Source: Thermotoga neapolitana DSM 4359
GTDB taxonomy: Bacteria > Thermotogota > Thermotogae > Thermotogales > Thermotogaceae
Direction: 5' to 3'
Length of the DNA: 64,000 nt
Assembly (NCBI RefSeq): GCF_000018945.1
Contig: NC_011978.1
Coordinates: 1,458,729 to 1,522,728, forward strand
The notes under the pieces were generated by a model, which saw nothing but the letters and a program-made list of their open reading frames with translations, was not told where the DNA came from and made no database searches. This document shows, piece after piece, positions 28,640 to 35,851 of the stretch. Each line of letters begins with the position of its first letter. Positions within the stretch are counted from its first letter, which is position 1. The position numbers and the translations under genes were made by a program.

Positions 28640-28723
28640 CTTCTTCGCCTCCTTGACATGGGATTATTCTAGCACCGGTTTTTTTAAAAGAATTATTCAA
28701 AACGGTGAATTTCCTAACAAAAA

Positions 28724-28732
28724 TGGTAGAAT
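28724..28732 (+). promoter_or_regulatory. extended -10 promoter of the his operon
   Basis: TGGTAGAAT is an extended -10 element placing transcription start a few bases before the leader peptide region at about 28740. No clear -35. Confidence 0.6.
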
Positions 28733-28755
28733 AAGACTCAAAGGAGCGATGAAGC

Positions 28756-28851
28756 ATGAGGATTCAAAGGAGAATCATAAAAATGTTTGCTTCTATACAC
28801 CATCATCACCGCTTCGGCCCGGCGGTTTCTCCACCGGGAGTTTGGCGGTGA
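28756..28851 (+). CDS. hisL: his operon leader peptide
   Basis: A 31-codon frame (or 22 codons from the in-frame ATG at 28783) that contains four consecutive histidine codons, CAC CAT CAT CAC, at 28798-28809 and ends with TGA at 28849. AAGGAG (28741) serves the first ATG and AAAGGAG (28766) the second. It directly precedes a G+C-rich region and a strong terminator before hisZ. This is the layout of a ribosome-mediated attenuator: ribosomes stalling at His codons when charged tRNA-His is scarce would favour read-through. The arrangement is seen directly in the sequence; regulation is inferred from the well-known enterobacterial his leader. Confidence 0.85.
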   Translation: MRIQRRIIKMFASIHHHHRFGPAVSPPGVWR

Positions 28852-28895
28852 GAAATCGTACGGGCCACGTCGAAAAGACGTGGCCCTTTTGTTTA
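28815..28895 (+). terminator. his attenuator: competing hairpins and terminator
   Basis: The terminator is GGGCCACGTC (28862-28871), loop GAAAA, GACGTGGCCC (28877-28886) and TTTT. Upstream, CCCGG (28818-28822) can pair with CCGGG (28834-28838), next to the His codons; CACCG (28832-28836) can pair instead with CGGTG (28846-28850); and GGCCCG (28816-28821) is complementary to CGGGCC (28861-28866), the 5' arm of the terminator. These pairings are mutually exclusive, as required for attenuation. Confidence 0.8.
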
Positions 28896-28904
28896 TTCGA
28901 GGAG

Positions 28905-29738
28905 GTGGACTTCTTGGATTTCGAAAAGGTGATTTCCTTCTACAGAAAAGCCTCAAAGGTTGGTTACGCACCTTTTTTCTCTCCTGCCTTTGAGAAAATG
29001 GAAAGTGTGTCCGGTGAAAGTGACTTTTTCCTTGACAGAAAAGGGAATCTCTATCGTGTGCGGAGTGATTTCACAAAATCTGTGCTAAATCATAGAAAAA
29101 AACAGGCTTTCACTTCCAAAATGAAAGTGTGGTACGCGGACTTCGTCTACAGATATTTCGGAGAAGAGATGGTGGCGGAGTATCAACTCGGCCTTGAAAA
29201 CATTCCAAGAGAATCCCTCAACGATACGTTCGAGGTGCTCGAGATCATAACAGAAAGTGTGCTTGAGATGTTCACCGGGCCACTGATAGTGGAAATAGGT
29301 CACACGAAGGTCTATGAAGATTTGCTGAGGACCGTCCCAAAGGATATTCACGAGAAGGTGCTCAATCTGATCGACACAAAGAACCTCGCGGAGATAGAGT
29401 TCCTTTCTCGAATGAAAGGTATCGATCTTTCTCGAATAGAAAAGATCATAGAGGACAGCATATACAGACGATCTCCCGAAAACCTTGAGGGGATGAATCT
29501 TCCCTCTTCTGTGAAAGAAGACCTCCTTTCCGTTTCTTCCTTCCTTCAGCGAAGATTTCCGAGTGTCCTTGTTGAAGTGGATCTCACTCTGGCAAGGACC
29601 ATAGAGGAGTACAGCGGTGTGATCTTCACCATCTATGACACATCGGCCTCCAAACTCGTGGCAGCCGGCGGTGAGTATTCGATAAACGGAGAAAAGGGTG
29701 TGGGAGGATCCATCTTTCTGGAGGGGAAAACATGTTGA
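28905..29738 (+). CDS. hisZ: ATP phosphoribosyltransferase regulatory subunit HisZ
   Basis: A 277-residue HisRS-like protein lacking the synthetase catalytic motifs; it binds the short HisG and carries the allosteric histidine site. DFEKVISFYRKASKVGYAPFFSPAFEKM and FLDRKGNLYRVRSDFTKSVLNH match T. maritima HisZ. The GTG at 28905 gives the same N-terminus (MDFLDFEKV) as I recall for that protein; TTG 28914, eight bases after GGAGG, is an alternative start. The frame is also open upstream through the leader region, but that is not a real extension. It overlaps hisG by seven bases. Confidence 0.92.
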   Translation: MDFLDFEKVISFYRKASKVGYAPFFSPAFEKMESVSGESDFFLDRKGNLYRVRSDFTKSVLNHRKKQAFTSKMKVWYADFVYRYFGEEMVAEYQLGLENIPRESLNDTFEVLEIITESVLEMFTGPLIVEIGHTKVYEDLLRTVPKDIHEKVLNLIDTKNLAEIEFLSRMKGIDLSRIEKIIEDSIYRRSPENLEGMNLPSSVKEDLLSVSSFLQRRFPSVLVEVDLTLARTIEEYSGVIFTIYDTSASKLVAAGGEYSINGEKGVGGSIFLEGKTC

Positions 29739-30358
29739 AACTCGCGATTCCAAAAGGAAGACTCGAAGAAAAGGTAATGGAGTTGCTCAAAAAAGCAGGA
29801 TACACTTTCCAAAAAGAGTCCTCCATCCTTCGTGAAGGAGAGGACGTAACCTGCTTCATGGTGAGACCGTTTGACGTTCCGACGTATCTCACCTACGGAG
29901 TAGCGGATATAGGTTTTTGTGGCACGGACGTGCTCCTTGAGAAGGAAACAAGCCTCATACAGCCGTTCTTCATCCCAACGAACGTGAGCAGGATGGTGCT
30001 GGCAGGGCCGAAAGGAAAGAAGATTCCAGAGGGCGAAAAGAGAATAGCCACCAAGTTTCCAAACATCACAAGAAGGTACTGTGAATCCAGGGGCTGGCAC
30101 TGCAAGATCATACCGCTGAAAGGATCCGTGGAACTTGCACCAATAGCCGGGCTTTCCGATCTCATCGTCGATATCACAGAAACGGGAAGAACCCTCCGGG
30201 AGAACGATCTTGAAGTCCTCGATGAAATATTCATCATAAGAACCCACGTTGTGGTGAATCCCGTGAGTTACAGAACGAAAAGAGAAGAAGTGATCTCCTT
30301 TCTGGAAAAACTCCAGGAGGTGATGAAAAATGATAATCATGAGAAATCCCACCGATGA
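29732..30358 (+). CDS. hisG: ATP phosphoribosyltransferase catalytic subunit, short form
   Basis: A 208-residue short-type HisG that makes N1-(5'-phosphoribosyl)-ATP, the first step of histidine synthesis. It lacks the C-terminal regulatory domain of long HisG and so needs HisZ. Motifs: AIPKGRLEEKVMELL, YGVADIGFCGTD, and the PRPP loop GLSDLIVDITETGRTLREN. ATG 29732 lies inside the end of hisZ, and the gene end overlaps hisD by 29 bases. Confidence 0.96.
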   Translation: MLKLAIPKGRLEEKVMELLKKAGYTFQKESSILREGEDVTCFMVRPFDVPTYLTYGVADIGFCGTDVLLEKETSLIQPFFIPTNVSRMVLAGPKGKKIPEGEKRIATKFPNITRRYCESRGWHCKIIPLKGSVELAPIAGLSDLIVDITETGRTLRENDLEVLDEIFIIRTHVVVNPVSYRTKREEVISFLEKLQEVMKNDNHEKSHR

Positions 30359-31616
30359 GGACATTCTGAAACTCCTTGAGAGAAGAATGAAGGCCGCCTC
30401 AGAAGTGGAAGAGATCGTCAAGGAGATCATAAAAAGGGTGAAAAACGAAGGGGACAGAGCCCTCGAAGAGTATCTGAAGCGTTTTGAAAAATACCCTCTT
30501 AGCGTGAGAGAACTTCTTGTCTCAGAAGAAGAAATGGCAGAAGTGAGTGTAGAGAAAGATTTCATCGAAACCGTGAAAATCGTGATAGAGGATCTGAAAG
30601 AGTTCCATCAAAGGCAGAAAGAGACTTCCTTTTTCTTCACAACCGATGGTGGAAGTTTTCTTGGCGAGATGGTGGTTCCTCTTGAGAGCGTTGGGATATA
30701 CGTTCCCGGAGGAAAAGTCCCGTACTTTTCCACCCTTCTCATGTGCGCCGTTCCTGCCATTGTGGCAGGTGTTGAAAGAATCGTCGTCACCACTCCACCC
30801 GATGAGAAGGGAAAAGTGTCCCCTTACATCCTGAAGGTGTGTGAAATTCTGGGTCTGAAAGAGATCTACAAGATGGGAGGAGCACATGCGATTGCTGCCC
30901 TCTCTTACGGAACAGAGACGGTGAAACCCGTTGACAAGATCGTGGGACCGGGTGGGGTTTTTGTTACACTCGCGAAGAAACTCGTTTATGGAGACGTGGG
31001 GATCGATTCCATAGCGGGTCCAAGTGAGATCACGATAATCACAGACGGAAGCATTCCTTTAGACTTTGTGGCAGCGGATTTTCTGTCCCAGGCTGAACAC
31101 GATGAAAACGCCATGAGCGTGGTCATAACGACCTCGAAAGAAGTTTTCGAGAAACTTCCAGGGGTCATAGAAGAGCATCTTCAATCCCTTCCTGAAGAGA
31201 GAAGGAAAACCGCCGAGATATCCACGAGCAACTTCGGAATCATCGTATTCACCGACGATCTGAAAAGGGCCTTTGAGATCTCCAACCTCATCGCCCCAGA
31301 ACATCTGGAAATACTCGTGGAAAAACCCTTCGAAGTTCTGAGTTATGTGAAGAACGCAGGTTCCGTGTTCCTTGGAAGGTACACCTGCGAATCCGTGGGA
31401 GACTACGGTGCGGGGCCAAACCATGTGCTTCCCACGTTCAGGTCCGCAAGGTTTTCTTCTGGACTCAGGGTTTCTGATTTCACAAAGAAGATCTTCGTCA
31501 CCCACTTTTCCGAGGAAGATTTCAAGAAGAAAAGTGTGCTCTACTCCAGAATGGCACGATGGGAAGGCTTTGAGGCACACGCGAGGGCTGTGGACGTGAG
31601 GAGGGAATCGCTGTGA
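30330..31616 (+). CDS. hisD: histidinol dehydrogenase
   Basis: A 428-residue zinc enzyme oxidising L-histidinol to L-histidine in two NAD+ steps. Motifs: [60 protein letters not shown], and [14 protein letters not shown] with the zinc-binding Gln/His. Later [17 protein letters not shown] provides further ligands. AGGAGGTGATG precedes ATG 30330; a second ATG at 30339 is possible. It overlaps both hisG and hisC. Confidence 0.96.
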
Positions 31617-32620
31617 ATCCCGTTGATCTGATCATAAAAAGGGCTTACCCGTACGAGACAGAGAAGAGAGACAGGATCTACCTCGCCCTGAACGAAAATC
31701 CGTTTCCCTTTCCGAAAGAACTCACAGAGGAGGTCTTCAGAAAACTCGAAGGCGACAAGATGAGAATATATTACGATTCTCCGGACGAAGAACTCATCGA
31801 AAAGATTCTTGAATATCTCGATGCCGATTTTTTGAGAGAGAATAACGTGTCGATCGGAAACGGTGCCGACGAGATCATATACGTGATGATGCTCATGTTC
31901 GAACGAGCGGTTTTCTTCCCCCCCACCTACAGCTGTTACAGAATTTTCGCGAAGGCGGTTGGTGCAAAGTACCTCGAAATTCCTCTCACGAAGTATCTGA
32001 AAATACCAGAAGTCGATGTTGGAGAGGGAGACGTTGTCTTCATCCCAAATCCCAACAATCCAACGGGTCATGTCTTCGAAAGGGAGGAGATCGAAAAGAT
32101 CCTGAAAAAAGGAGCGTTCGTTGCTCTGGATGAAGCCTACTACGAATTCCATGGAGAAAGCTACATCGACCTTTTGAAAGAGTACGAAAATCTTGCCATC
32201 ATCAGGACATTTTCCAAGGCGTTTTCTCTCGCTGCTCAGAGGATCGGATACGTCATCTCCTCTGAAAAGTTCATCGACGCGTACAACAGAGTGAGACTGC
32301 CGTTCAACGTGAGTTACGTCTCCCAGACCTTTGCGAAGGTGGCGCTGGAACACATCGATATCTTCAAAGAGCGGATAGAATACATCGTCTCGGAGAGGGA
32401 GAGAATGAAAAAAGCACTGAAGGAGCTGAACTATTCCATTTCCGACTCGCGCGGGAACTTCGTTTTCATATTCATGGACAGAAAAGAGCAGAACAAACTG
32501 ATAGAACAGCTCCGGCAGAAGAACATAGCAGTTCGAAGTTTCAGAGAAGGTGTTAGAATCACTATCGGAAAAAGAGAAGAGAACGAAACTATTCTGAAAG
32601 AACTGGAGGTGTTCAGATGA
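31613..32620 (+). CDS. hisC: histidinol-phosphate aminotransferase
   Basis: A 335-residue fold-type I PLP aminotransferase converting imidazole-acetol phosphate and glutamate to histidinol phosphate. The PLP-Lys is in [15 protein letters not shown], phosphate contacts are in GNGADEIIY, and the PNPNNPTGH and LDEAYYEF motifs are present. The GTG start overlaps the hisD stop (GTGA). Confidence 0.96.
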
Positions 32621-33204
32621 CGGTGGAAAGGATAGAAAACGGTGTCATTGTTCAAAGAAACACGAAGGAGATAGAGATCTCCATAACACTGGACACGGTT
32701 CACGGAAAACTCGAAGGAAGCACCGGTGTGAACTTCTTCGATCATCTTTTGAACACTTTCTGTCACTATTCGGGACTGGGTCTCAGGGTGAGCACCTGTG
32801 AGAGCAAAGACGGTATCCTTCACCATCTGATAGAGGACTTTGGAATCTCCCTGGGACAGGCGTTCAGGGAGCTCTTCGACTACACGAAGGTGAAAAGGTT
32901 CGGCGAGGCCTCCGTTCCTATGAACGAGGCGCTCATAGGATGTTACGTGGATCTCTCTGGAAGGCCCTTCTTCCAGAAGAATTTTGAATTCTCCGTGGAG
33001 AAGATAGAGGACATGCCCGTTGAAGGTTTCGAGGAGTTCATGAACGGCTTTGTCAACCATGCAAGGATCACAGTTCACTTCTTCAAGTTCTTTGGAAAGA
33101 ACGACCATCACATCTCCGAATCTGCCATGAAGTCCTTTGGGCTTGCAATCGCCCGTGCACTGGAAAGATCGGACACCAGAACCACCAAGGGTGTGATAGA
33201 TTGA
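32617..33204 (+). CDS. hisB: imidazoleglycerol-phosphate dehydratase, monofunctional
   Basis: A 195-residue IGPD without the N-terminal histidinol-phosphatase domain found in E. coli HisB. Manganese-binding motifs are [25 protein letters not shown], and [23 protein letters not shown] overlaps the hisC stop (ATGA). Confidence 0.96.
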
Positions 33205-33806
33205 GGATCGGAATAATTGCCGTTGGCCCCGGCAACATCATGAACCTCTACCGAGGAGTGAAAAGAGCGGCCGAGGGCCTTGAAAACGTCTCCATAGATC
33301 TGGTAGAAAATCCTCAGAAAGATCTGTACGACCTTCTCTTCATTCCCGGTGTTGGGCACTTTGGAGAAGGAATGAGAAGGTTGAAAGAAAACGGCCTGAT
33401 CGACTTCATAGAAGAACACGTGGAAGACGGAAAGTACGTTGTCGGTGTCTGTCTTGGTATGCAACTTTTGTTCGAAGAAAGCGAAGAGGCACCGGGTGTG
33501 AGAGGGCTTTCCCTGATAGATGGAAACGTTGTGAAACTGAAAAGCAAAAGACTTCCCCACATGGGATGGAACGAGGTGATCTTCAAGGACACCTTTCCGA
33601 GCGGATACTATTACTTCGTTCACACTTACAGGGTCGTGTGTGAAAAGGACTACGTTCTGGGAACGACAGAGTACGACGGGGAGATCTTTCCTTCATCCGT
33701 CAGAAAAGGAAAAATACTCGGTTTCCAGTTCCATCCGGAGAAGAGTTCGAAGATAGGAAAGAAACTCCTCAGGAAGGTGATCGAATGCTCGTCATCCCGG
33801 CCATAG
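33201..33806 (+). CDS. hisH: imidazole glycerol phosphate synthase, glutaminase subunit
   Basis: A 201-residue class I glutamine amidotransferase supplying ammonia to HisF. It starts with TTG overlapping the hisB stop (TTGA). The nucleophile Cys is in [13 protein letters not shown] and the catalytic His/Glu pair is in GFQFHPEKS. The oxyanion-strand segment is [12 protein letters not shown]. It overlaps hisA by 22 bases. Confidence 0.96.
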
Positions 33807-34531
33807 ACCTGTACAGAAAAAAGGTCGTGAGGATGGTCAAGGGTAAAAAGGAAAACACGATATTCTACGAGAAGGATCCCATTGAACTTGTGGAAAAACT
33901 CGTCGAGGAGGGATTTTCTCTCATCCACGTGGTGGATCTTTCAAGAGCCATAGAGGAAAGCGATGAAAACCTGCCGGTTCTGGAAAAACTCTCATCCTAT
34001 GCCGATCACATTCAAATCGGCGGTGGAATAAGGATACTGGAGTACGCAAAAAAACTCCTCGGAATGGGATTCAGAAGACAGATCGTGAGTTCAAAGGTGC
34101 TGGAAGATCCCTCTTTCCTGAAGAAGTTAAAAGAAATCGGAGTGAATCCAGTCTTCAGTCTCGACACAAGAGAAGGGAAGGTGGCGTTCAAGGGCTGGCT
34201 GGATGAAAAAGACATCGATCCTGTTTTTCTTGTGAACAGATTGAAAGAGTTCGGCCTTGAAGAGATCGTCCACACGGAGATAGAAAAGGATGGCACCCTG
34301 AAAGAGCACGATTTCTCTCTGACGGAAAGGATCGCCCTGGAAACGGGTGTGAAAGTGATAGCAGCGGGTGGTATCTCCTCAGAACGTTCCCTAGAGGAGG
34401 CTCTTGAGGTCCACAGAAGAACGAACGGTCTTTTGAAGGGTGTGATCGTGGGAAGAGCGTTTCTGGAAGGCACCCTCACAGTCGAGGTGATGAAAAGGTA
34501 TGCTTGCCAAGAGAATAATAGCGTGTCTTGA
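33785..34531 (+). CDS. hisA: ProFAR isomerase
   Basis: A 248-residue (beta-alpha)8 barrel that isomerises ProFAR to PRFAR by an Amadori rearrangement. Catalytic Asp is Asp8 in IPAIDLYR and the second is in HTEIEKDGT (Thr-Glu-Ile-Glu-Lys-Asp); phosphate motifs are IGGGIR and AAGGISS. By memory T. maritima HisA ends at VMKRYAR (241 residues); here the frame runs on about seven residues, giving a 32-base overlap with hisF. Confidence 0.95.
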
Positions 34532-35261
34532 TGTGAAAGATGGTCGCGTGGTGAAGGGTACGAACTTTGAAAACCTCAGAGACAGCGGAGATCCCGTTGA
34601 ACTGGGAAAGCTTTACTCCGAGATAGGAATAGACGAACTCGTCTTTCTGGACATCACCGCGTCTGTGGAAAAGAGAAAAACGATGCTCGAACTGGTGGAG
34701 AAGGTGGCAGAACAGATCGACATTCCCTTCACTGTGGGTGGAGGAATACACGATTTCGAAACGGCATCGGAACTCATCCTCAGAGGTGCGGACAAAGTGA
34801 GTATCAACACCGCTGCGGTGGAAAAACCGGATCTCATCACCAGGATCGCCGAAACCTTCGGAAGCCAGGCGGTCGTTGTGGCGATAGATGCAAAGAGGAT
34901 GGACGGTGATTTCATCGTCTTCACCTACTCGGGAAAGAAAAACACCGGTATTCTCCTCTCGGACTGGGTCCGTGAGGTGGAAAGAAGGGGAGCCGGAGAG
35001 ATACTTCTCACCAGCATCGACAGAGACGGTACGAAAATGGGATACGACACGGAGATGATCGAATTCGTAAGACCGCTGACGAACCTTCCCATCATCGCTT
35101 CGGGTGGTGCGGGAAAGATGGAGCATTTTCTTGAGGCGTTCCGGGCCGGTGCGGATGCTGCACTTGCGGCGTCTGTGTTTCATTTCAGAGAGATCGATGT
35201 GATGGAACTCAAAAGATTTCTCAGAGAAAACGGTGTGAACGTGAGATTGGAGGGAATGTGA
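34500..35261 (+). CDS. hisF: imidazole glycerol phosphate synthase, cyclase subunit
   Basis: A 253-residue (beta-alpha)8 barrel closely matching T. maritima HisF. Catalytic Asp11 is in [13 protein letters not shown] and Asp130 in LTSIDRDGT; phosphate motifs TVGGGI and [10 protein letters not shown] are intact. It condenses PRFAR with ammonia from HisH to imidazole glycerol phosphate and AICAR. The start lies 32 bases inside hisA. Confidence 0.97.
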
Positions 35262-35851
35262 TGGAACTCTATCCCGTGGTGGTTCAGGAGAGAACAACCG
35301 GCGAGGTGCTGATGCTCGCTTACGCGAACAGAGAGGCTCTGGAACTCACGAAGAAAACGGGATACGCTCACTTCTTCTCCAGAGAAAGACAAAAGATCTG
35401 GAAAAAGGGAGAGACCTCTGGAAACACCATGAGGGTTGTGGAAATAAGGAGAGACTGCGATGATGATGCGTACCTTTATATCGTGGACTTTCCGGAGGAG
35501 AAGGTGGCGTGCCACACAGGAAACAGGTCCTGCTTCTTCAAGGTGGAACACAGATTCGAAGAGACAGGCTCTCCCACCTTCTGGCTTGAGCTGTACAGAC
35601 TGGTGAGAGAAAGAAAAGAAGAGATGCCAGAGGGGTCCTACACCGCAAAACTCTTTAAAGAAGGAAAGGGAAAGATCGCAAAGAAGTTCGGAGAAGAAGC
35701 AATCGAGGTGATAACTGGCTACCTTCAAAACGACAGGGAAAACCTCGTCTGGGAGATAGCCGACATGGTGTATCACCTCACGGTCCTCATGGTCGAGGCG
35801 GGGATCACCGTTCAGGATGTGATGAAGGAACTGGAAAAGAGAAGAAAGTGA
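35258..35851 (+). CDS. hisIE: bifunctional phosphoribosyl-AMP cyclohydrolase / phosphoribosyl-ATP pyrophosphatase
   Basis: A 197-residue fusion. The N-terminal HisI domain (about 1-110) has [11 protein letters not shown] and [10 protein letters not shown] zinc/metal sites; the HisE domain (about 112-197) has [26 protein letters not shown] and [11 protein letters not shown]. It carries out steps two and three of the pathway. It is the last gene; its TGA is immediately followed by the complement of the opposing wecB stop, so no terminator can lie between them. Confidence 0.96.

Follow-up and report, generated by a model that had tools for sequence, protein, structure and literature searches.

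In E. coli and Salmonella, the his operon is preceded by hisL, a short frame with seven consecutive His codons, which is followed by mutually exclusive antiterminator and terminator structures. E. coli hisL precedes the long-form hisG gene. An earlier note on the DNA analyzed here had described attenuation with a His leader as classically known from γ-proteobacteria. His leaders are not confined to this group, since candidate His attenuators with three to five consecutive His codons, an antiterminator and a terminator have been published upstream of the his operons of the Bacillus cereus group, Peptostreptococcaceae and Erysipelotrichales in the Firmicutes (PMC9413887). The classical trp attenuators of Proteobacteria and Actinobacteria are based on a complementary triple, namely the strand after the regulatory codons, the 5' arm of the terminator and the 3' arm of the terminator (PMC1262725). 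In an Rfam-based scan that included 11 Thermotogales genomes, amino acid attenuators were called probably γ-proteobacterial in origin, with very few transfers (PMC3766115), and Thermotogae genomes were also included in another study, where the attenuator motifs were described from other groups (PMC8632094). A literature search for attenuators of the Thermotogota found no paper. The Thermotogales are reportedly named in the abstract of Vitreschak et al. 2004 (FEMS Microbiol Lett 234:357) among the groups with candidate amino acid attenuators, and the Thermotoga His leader may be one of those candidates; covariation across the phylum and the other specificities reported below were beyond the reach of the genomes known in 2004.

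Here we report a sequence and computational analysis of a leader region upstream of the his operon of Thermotoga neapolitana, which contains a His-codon frame and mutually exclusive, covarying hairpins that are conserved among the Thermotogota. The region lies in a 64,000-nucleotide stretch (G000:C1:1458729-1522728; hereafter the window) of a genome assembled as a single contig of 1,884,562 bases. Judged from its sequence, it is very probably a histidine-specific, ribosome-mediated transcription attenuator of the hisZ-G-D-C-B-H-A-F-IE operon. It resembles hisL of E. coli and Salmonella in having a short frame with consecutive His codons and exclusive antiterminator and terminator structures 5' of a his operon and would work by a like logic; it differs in having four His codons rather than seven, a longer leader peptide, fewer hairpins, a His-codon strand that pairs with the stop-codon segment, and, compared with E. 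coli, an operon that begins with hisZ and a short hisG. The Firmicutes candidates share the consecutive His codons, the antiterminator and terminator, and the position 5' of his operons; they belong to another phylum and were compared by description (PMC9413887). The complementary triple of the classical trp attenuators is also present, with His in place of Trp codons and with the regulatory-codon strand pairing here with the stop-codon segment (PMC1262725).

The his leader region and operon of T. neapolitana

All features described here are on the + strand, and their positions are those of the window. The leader frame (28756-28851) encodes the 31-aa peptide MRIQRRIIKMFASIHHHHRFGPAVSPPGVWR* from an ATG at 28756 to a TGA at 28849-28851 and has homologous or analogous leaders in related genomes; its four regulatory His codons, CAC CAT CAT CAC, occupy positions 28798-28809. 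The His codon run alone is unremarkable, as the four-His string CAYCAYCAYCAY occurs 19 times in the T. neapolitana genome, and the significance of the leader thus comes from the combination of features and their conservation. The frame is preceded at a distance of 9 nt from its ATG by the Shine-Dalgarno sequence AAAGGAG (28740-28746), which is kept in the Thermotoga relatives. Further upstream, an extended -10 promoter element, TGGTAGAAT (28724-28732), is located approximately 7 nt 5' of a presumed transcription start near 28739, and similar -10 elements are found at the equivalent upstream place in most related leaders.

Ten nucleotides 3' of the leader stop codon begins an intrinsic terminator, GGGCCACGUC-GAAAA-GACGUGGCCC followed by TTTTGTTTA, whose hairpin (28862-28886; ten pairs, eight of them G-C; -21.2 kcal/mol) is extended by a T-rich tail to 28894. 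The antiterminator (-33.6 kcal/mol) pairs 28816-28836 with 28846-28866; at its outer end, GGCCCG (28816-28821), located 6 nt past the last His codon, pairs with CGGGCC (28861-28866). Positions 28862-28866 are common to the antiterminator and the terminator, which are therefore mutually exclusive. In a third structure, hairpin A (28803-28853), the His codons (28803-28813) are paired with the sequence surrounding the stop codon of the leader (28844-28853) and enclose a small hairpin (28818-28825/28831-28838). Hairpin A is found in the minimum-energy folds of the window leader and of nearly all related Thermotoga-type leaders; it has positions 28846-28853 in common with the antiterminator and excludes it.

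Comparison with shuffled sequences showed that the fold of the whole window leader is exceptionally stable (z = -5.84; matched by none of 200 shuffles). When only the sequence upstream of the fixed terminator arm was shuffled, none of 300 dinucleotide shuffles reached the energy of the window antiterminator, and at most one of 300 did so for each of 24 Thermotogota His leaders tested; folding energy served as the statistic in these tests, the count of paired terminator-arm bases having discriminated poorly for the GC-rich Thermotoga leaders. The short frame with four consecutive His codons, the mutually exclusive hairpins with a strong terminator before hisZ, and the complementarity of GGCCCG to the 5' arm of the terminator had all been described in the earlier note, and the frame and codon positions, the folds, the shared segment and the shuffle tests bear them out.

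No match to the Rfam His_leader family (RF00514), to the T-box covariance model or to riboswitches was found at the site, either at the gathering score over the window or at scores up to E = 5 for positions 28640-28960. A weak match of the leader to a CRISPR repeat in Rfam (E 0.07) was below the cut-off and was taken as chance.

The first gene of the downstream operon, hisZ (28914-29738, start codon TTG), encodes the HisRS-like regulatory subunit of ATP phosphoribosyltransferase and adjoins hisG; its product matched Pfam PF13393 (E 3.1e-22) and, under the curated NCBIfam cut-off, TIGR00443 (E 1.5e-23). The short-form hisG (29732-30358) matched TIGR00070 above the cut-off, and hisD, hisC, hisB, hisH, hisA, hisF and hisIE follow in one row with overlapping or abutting ends (30330-35851). 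The hisZ start codon is located 62 nt past the leader stop codon, and the hisZ Shine-Dalgarno sequence lies outside the hairpins. In two Thermotoga genomes, G001 (L007, L011) and G006 (L008, L012), a TnpB (IS605-type) element of approximately 1.4 kb is located between the his terminator and hisZ, and the attenuator is thus separated from the operon there.

Conservation and covariation among the Thermotogota

The earlier note had made its attenuator reading dependent on whether the leader and its His codons recur in relatives. We found hisG in 34 of 103 Thermotogota genomes, and in 29 of these 34, representing six of eight families, hisZ or hisG is preceded by a His leader and a terminator of like geometry, the His runs being recognized by script and by eye. 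The leader-bearing genomes comprise all seven Thermotoga genomes, G010, five genomes of family f2, two of f3, one each of f5 (G042) and f7 (G045), and twelve of f10, where three leaders (G078, G094, G095) have only two His codons. No recognizable His leader was found in the other five hisG-containing genomes (G024, G041, G100-G102). A covariance model constructed from 15 leaders identified the Thermotoga-type leader in 16 genomes (E < 1e-16), and a Petrotoga-type model finds its own separate set. In a HisG-alignment profile search of the genome contigs, the matches were mostly Firmicutes. A Petrotoga-type His leader, L101 (G098:C153:823-985), was observed in a fragmented genome classed in f3, which may reflect assembly contamination or gene transfer; in another genome the His leader is doubled around a run of N (L021, G020:C10), most likely a scaffolding artefact.

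Among the Thermotoga relatives, the first, third and fourth His positions vary between CAC and CAT only, whereas at the second, one species has Cys and another has Phe. The tip of the antiterminator reads GGCCCG, GACCCG or GCCCCG in the three main groups, and its partner strands read CGGGCC, CGGGUC and AGGGGC, respectively. The variable base forms a G-C, A-U or C-G pair in the antiterminator, and the same base forms a C-G, U-A or G-C pair in the terminator; covariation of this kind, over three strands, is evidence for the two alternative folds simultaneously. In the antiterminator alignment, 95.6% of cells are paired, compared with at most 57.8% when the alignment is slid; in the terminator alignment of 15 sequences, 100% of cells are paired, with three doubly changed pairs, compared with at most 60%. 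The antiterminator strands of f10 (CGUGRCCG/CGGUCACG) and of f7 (GCACCG/CGGUGC) are unrelated in sequence to those of Thermotoga. The geometry in both families is that of Thermotoga, with an antiterminator that begins shortly past the His codons and takes the 5' arm of the terminator, and every leader retains a strong terminator and its T-rich tail. The recurrence of the leader and its His codons, together with the covariation of the alternative hairpins, did not refute the reading of the note, and the interpretation of the leader as a His attenuator is supported.

Candidate leaders with other amino acid specificities

The weak matches of the His covariance model turned out to represent further leaders, which carry cognate codons and share the antiterminator geometry. 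From these sequences, it is probable that leader-peptide transcription attenuation serves the Thermotogota as a general means of amino acid sensing, of which the window His leader is one member. The proposed repertoire includes Arg (argG, argJ), Lys (dapF-dapA, aspartate kinase) and Met (metQ, metH) specificities that are not known to have been described for bacterial leader-peptide attenuators, as well as leaders that mix Arg, Lys and His codons and precede genes for ABC transporters and a permease.

The argG leaders of six genomes contain two or three Arg codons (NIRRRxKxRWV), and the argJ leaders of nine f10 genomes contain three (NNDRRRPCSRWIISTG). Throughout these leaders (L188, L189, L220-L241) Arg is kept across CGN/AGR exchange, and an antiterminator and a terminator follow; the arrangement looks like an arginine leader-peptide attenuator. 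We know of no bacterium in which such an attenuator has been described, and a literature search found neither a paper on attenuation by an Arg leader nor any account of leader-peptide attenuators for Arg, Lys or Met in bacteria. Elsewhere, the Met and Lys pathways are associated with riboswitches, and the Arg pathway with T-boxes (PMC1262725).

Trp leaders (L187, L191, L266, L275-L290) were identified with WWW before trpB2 and with WW or WWW before trpE in f5, f8 and f10, and a further candidate was found in f11. A Trp leader before trpE was sought in Thermotoga as well: there is none in the T. neapolitana genome, and WW-containing frames are present in three other Thermotoga genomes, so that the Thermotogales case of Vitreschak et al. 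2004 is not pinned to trp.

The same hairpin design follows Lys-rich leaders, which precede dapF-dapA and aspartate kinase genes, and leaders of mixed Arg-Lys-His content (RKHHVK, RKHIK), which precede amino acid ABC transporter and permease genes (L197, L086, L194, L198, L200, L201 and L082 for the two types). Leaders with HHH, RHHSR or RKHHVK precede genes for family-3 solute-binding proteins, and MIMC leaders with neighbouring Met codons precede metQ (L192) and a metH operon (L190).

Several further leaders were noted. MIMC leaders also occur as L185, L186 and, in T. neapolitana outside the window, L184 (G000:C1:1756405-1756517, minus strand), where the next gene encodes an unnamed 170-aa protein and is possibly methionine-related. 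In L195 (G079:C1), NNQPEP codons are combined with the common hairpin design ahead of a citrate synthase gene, and the leader is possibly Gln/Glu/Pro-sensing; nearby, HHH and RHHSR leaders stand before two genes for family-3 solute-binding proteins. A VVYIVLIL leader with this hairpin design is located before an amidohydrolase gene (L079, L081).

For 11 of 12 of these other leaders, no more than 3 of 300 shuffles reached the antiterminator energy; only the Trp leader L266 departed from this (18/300). In a second shuffle set of Arg and Trp leaders, most were reached by at most 8 of 200, with weaker values for L226 (17/200), L230 (63/200), L266 (25/200) and L284 (27/200). An Rfam scan of 15 leader loci gave no match at any leader.

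Proposed mechanism, alternatives and implications

The mechanism that we propose is ribosome-mediated transcription attenuation, for which "translational" attenuation, the term of the earlier note, is the wrong name. RNA polymerase would start near 28739, and a ribosome coupled to it near 80 °C would initiate the leader at 28756. At a plentiful level of charged His-tRNA, the ribosome would reach the stop codon (28849-28851), where its footprint (approximately 28831-28861) would cover the inner antiterminator and end just 5' of the terminator, allowing the terminator to form and transcription to stop. When charged His-tRNA is scarce, the ribosome would stall at the first His codons and keep the His-codon strand off 28844-28853; the antiterminator (28816-28836/28846-28866) would then form once transcribed and capture the 5' arm of the terminator, resulting in read-through into hisZ. 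An untranslated leader would lead to termination by default.

Constrained folding was used to follow these states, with ribosome footprints and 80 °C energies that are approximations. The probability of the completed terminator was ~1.0 at 37 °C and 0.97 at 80 °C in the ribosome-free RNA, and 1.0 and 0.97, respectively, with a ribosome at the stop codon (footprint end ~28861). When the ribosomal A site was placed at His15 or His16 and the 3' arm of the terminator was not yet made, the antiterminator had a probability of 0.99 at 37 °C and 0.95-0.96 at 80 °C; at equilibrium with the complete terminator, the corresponding values were 0.20-0.83 and 0.34-0.62. Since the preference for the antiterminator at equilibrium is partial after terminator completion, the model needs kinetic trapping. 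In the same analysis, a stall at His17 or His18 would place the ribosome over the antiterminator strand; the greatest effect is thus expected from the first two His codons. The TnpB elements of G001 and G006 and the five hisG-containing genomes that have no recognizable leader also weigh against the model.

The RNA switch might be real yet be read by something other than the ribosome, such as a protein, a metabolite or, as in T-boxes, a tRNA, with the CAY run being kept because it is paired with UGAUGGUGG around the stop codon, not for histidine. The His codons do form one strand of hairpin A in the Thermotoga-type leaders, and the CAC/CAT exchange is compatible with G-C/G-U pairing. Such a reader is nevertheless improbable, given that the His codons are retained in the f5, f7 and f10 leaders despite a different RNA context and pairing, that the arg, trp and lys sister leaders carry Arg, Trp and Lys codons at the equivalent place, with Arg kept through CGN/AGR exchange, and that Rfam gave no T-box or riboswitch match at the leader. 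The leader could also act mainly on translation, with re-initiation or coupling raising or lowering hisZ initiation rather than changing termination, a reading favoured by the distance of 62 nt between the leader stop and the hisZ start and by a general proposal of re-initiation from leader genes (PMC4833913); the strong T-tailed terminator of every leader and a hisZ Shine-Dalgarno sequence outside the hairpins make this very unlikely. That a constitutive terminator merely follows a chance short frame, with no regulation, is hardly credible: the genome contains 19 four-His strings, and hairpins resembling terminators are common, but the phylum-wide conservation, the covariation of both exclusive folds and the shuffle tests contradict it, and there would be little point in placing a constitutive terminator directly ahead of an essential biosynthetic operon.

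With the leader understood as a His-specific transcription attenuator, a control system known mainly from relatives of E. coli is retained across a distantly related phylum whose members are mostly thermophiles. The presence of the leader in the Thermotogota is by itself no demonstration of great age. The operon start with hisZ and a short hisG, compared with the long hisG of E. coli, argues against a simple transfer from γ-proteobacteria, and the origin may be ancient or convergent. As the strand sequences are wholly changed between families and the pairing logic is kept, these leaders provide a natural data set on whether attenuation is ancient or was repeatedly invented. If the proposed mechanism is true, the coupling of ribosome and RNA polymerase persists near 80 °C, and RNA hairpins retain their ability to switch at this temperature. 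The Arg, Lys, Met, Trp and mixed-codon leaders, if they function likewise, would widen the range of amino acids sensed by attenuation, and their codons would predict the substrates of uncharacterized transporters.
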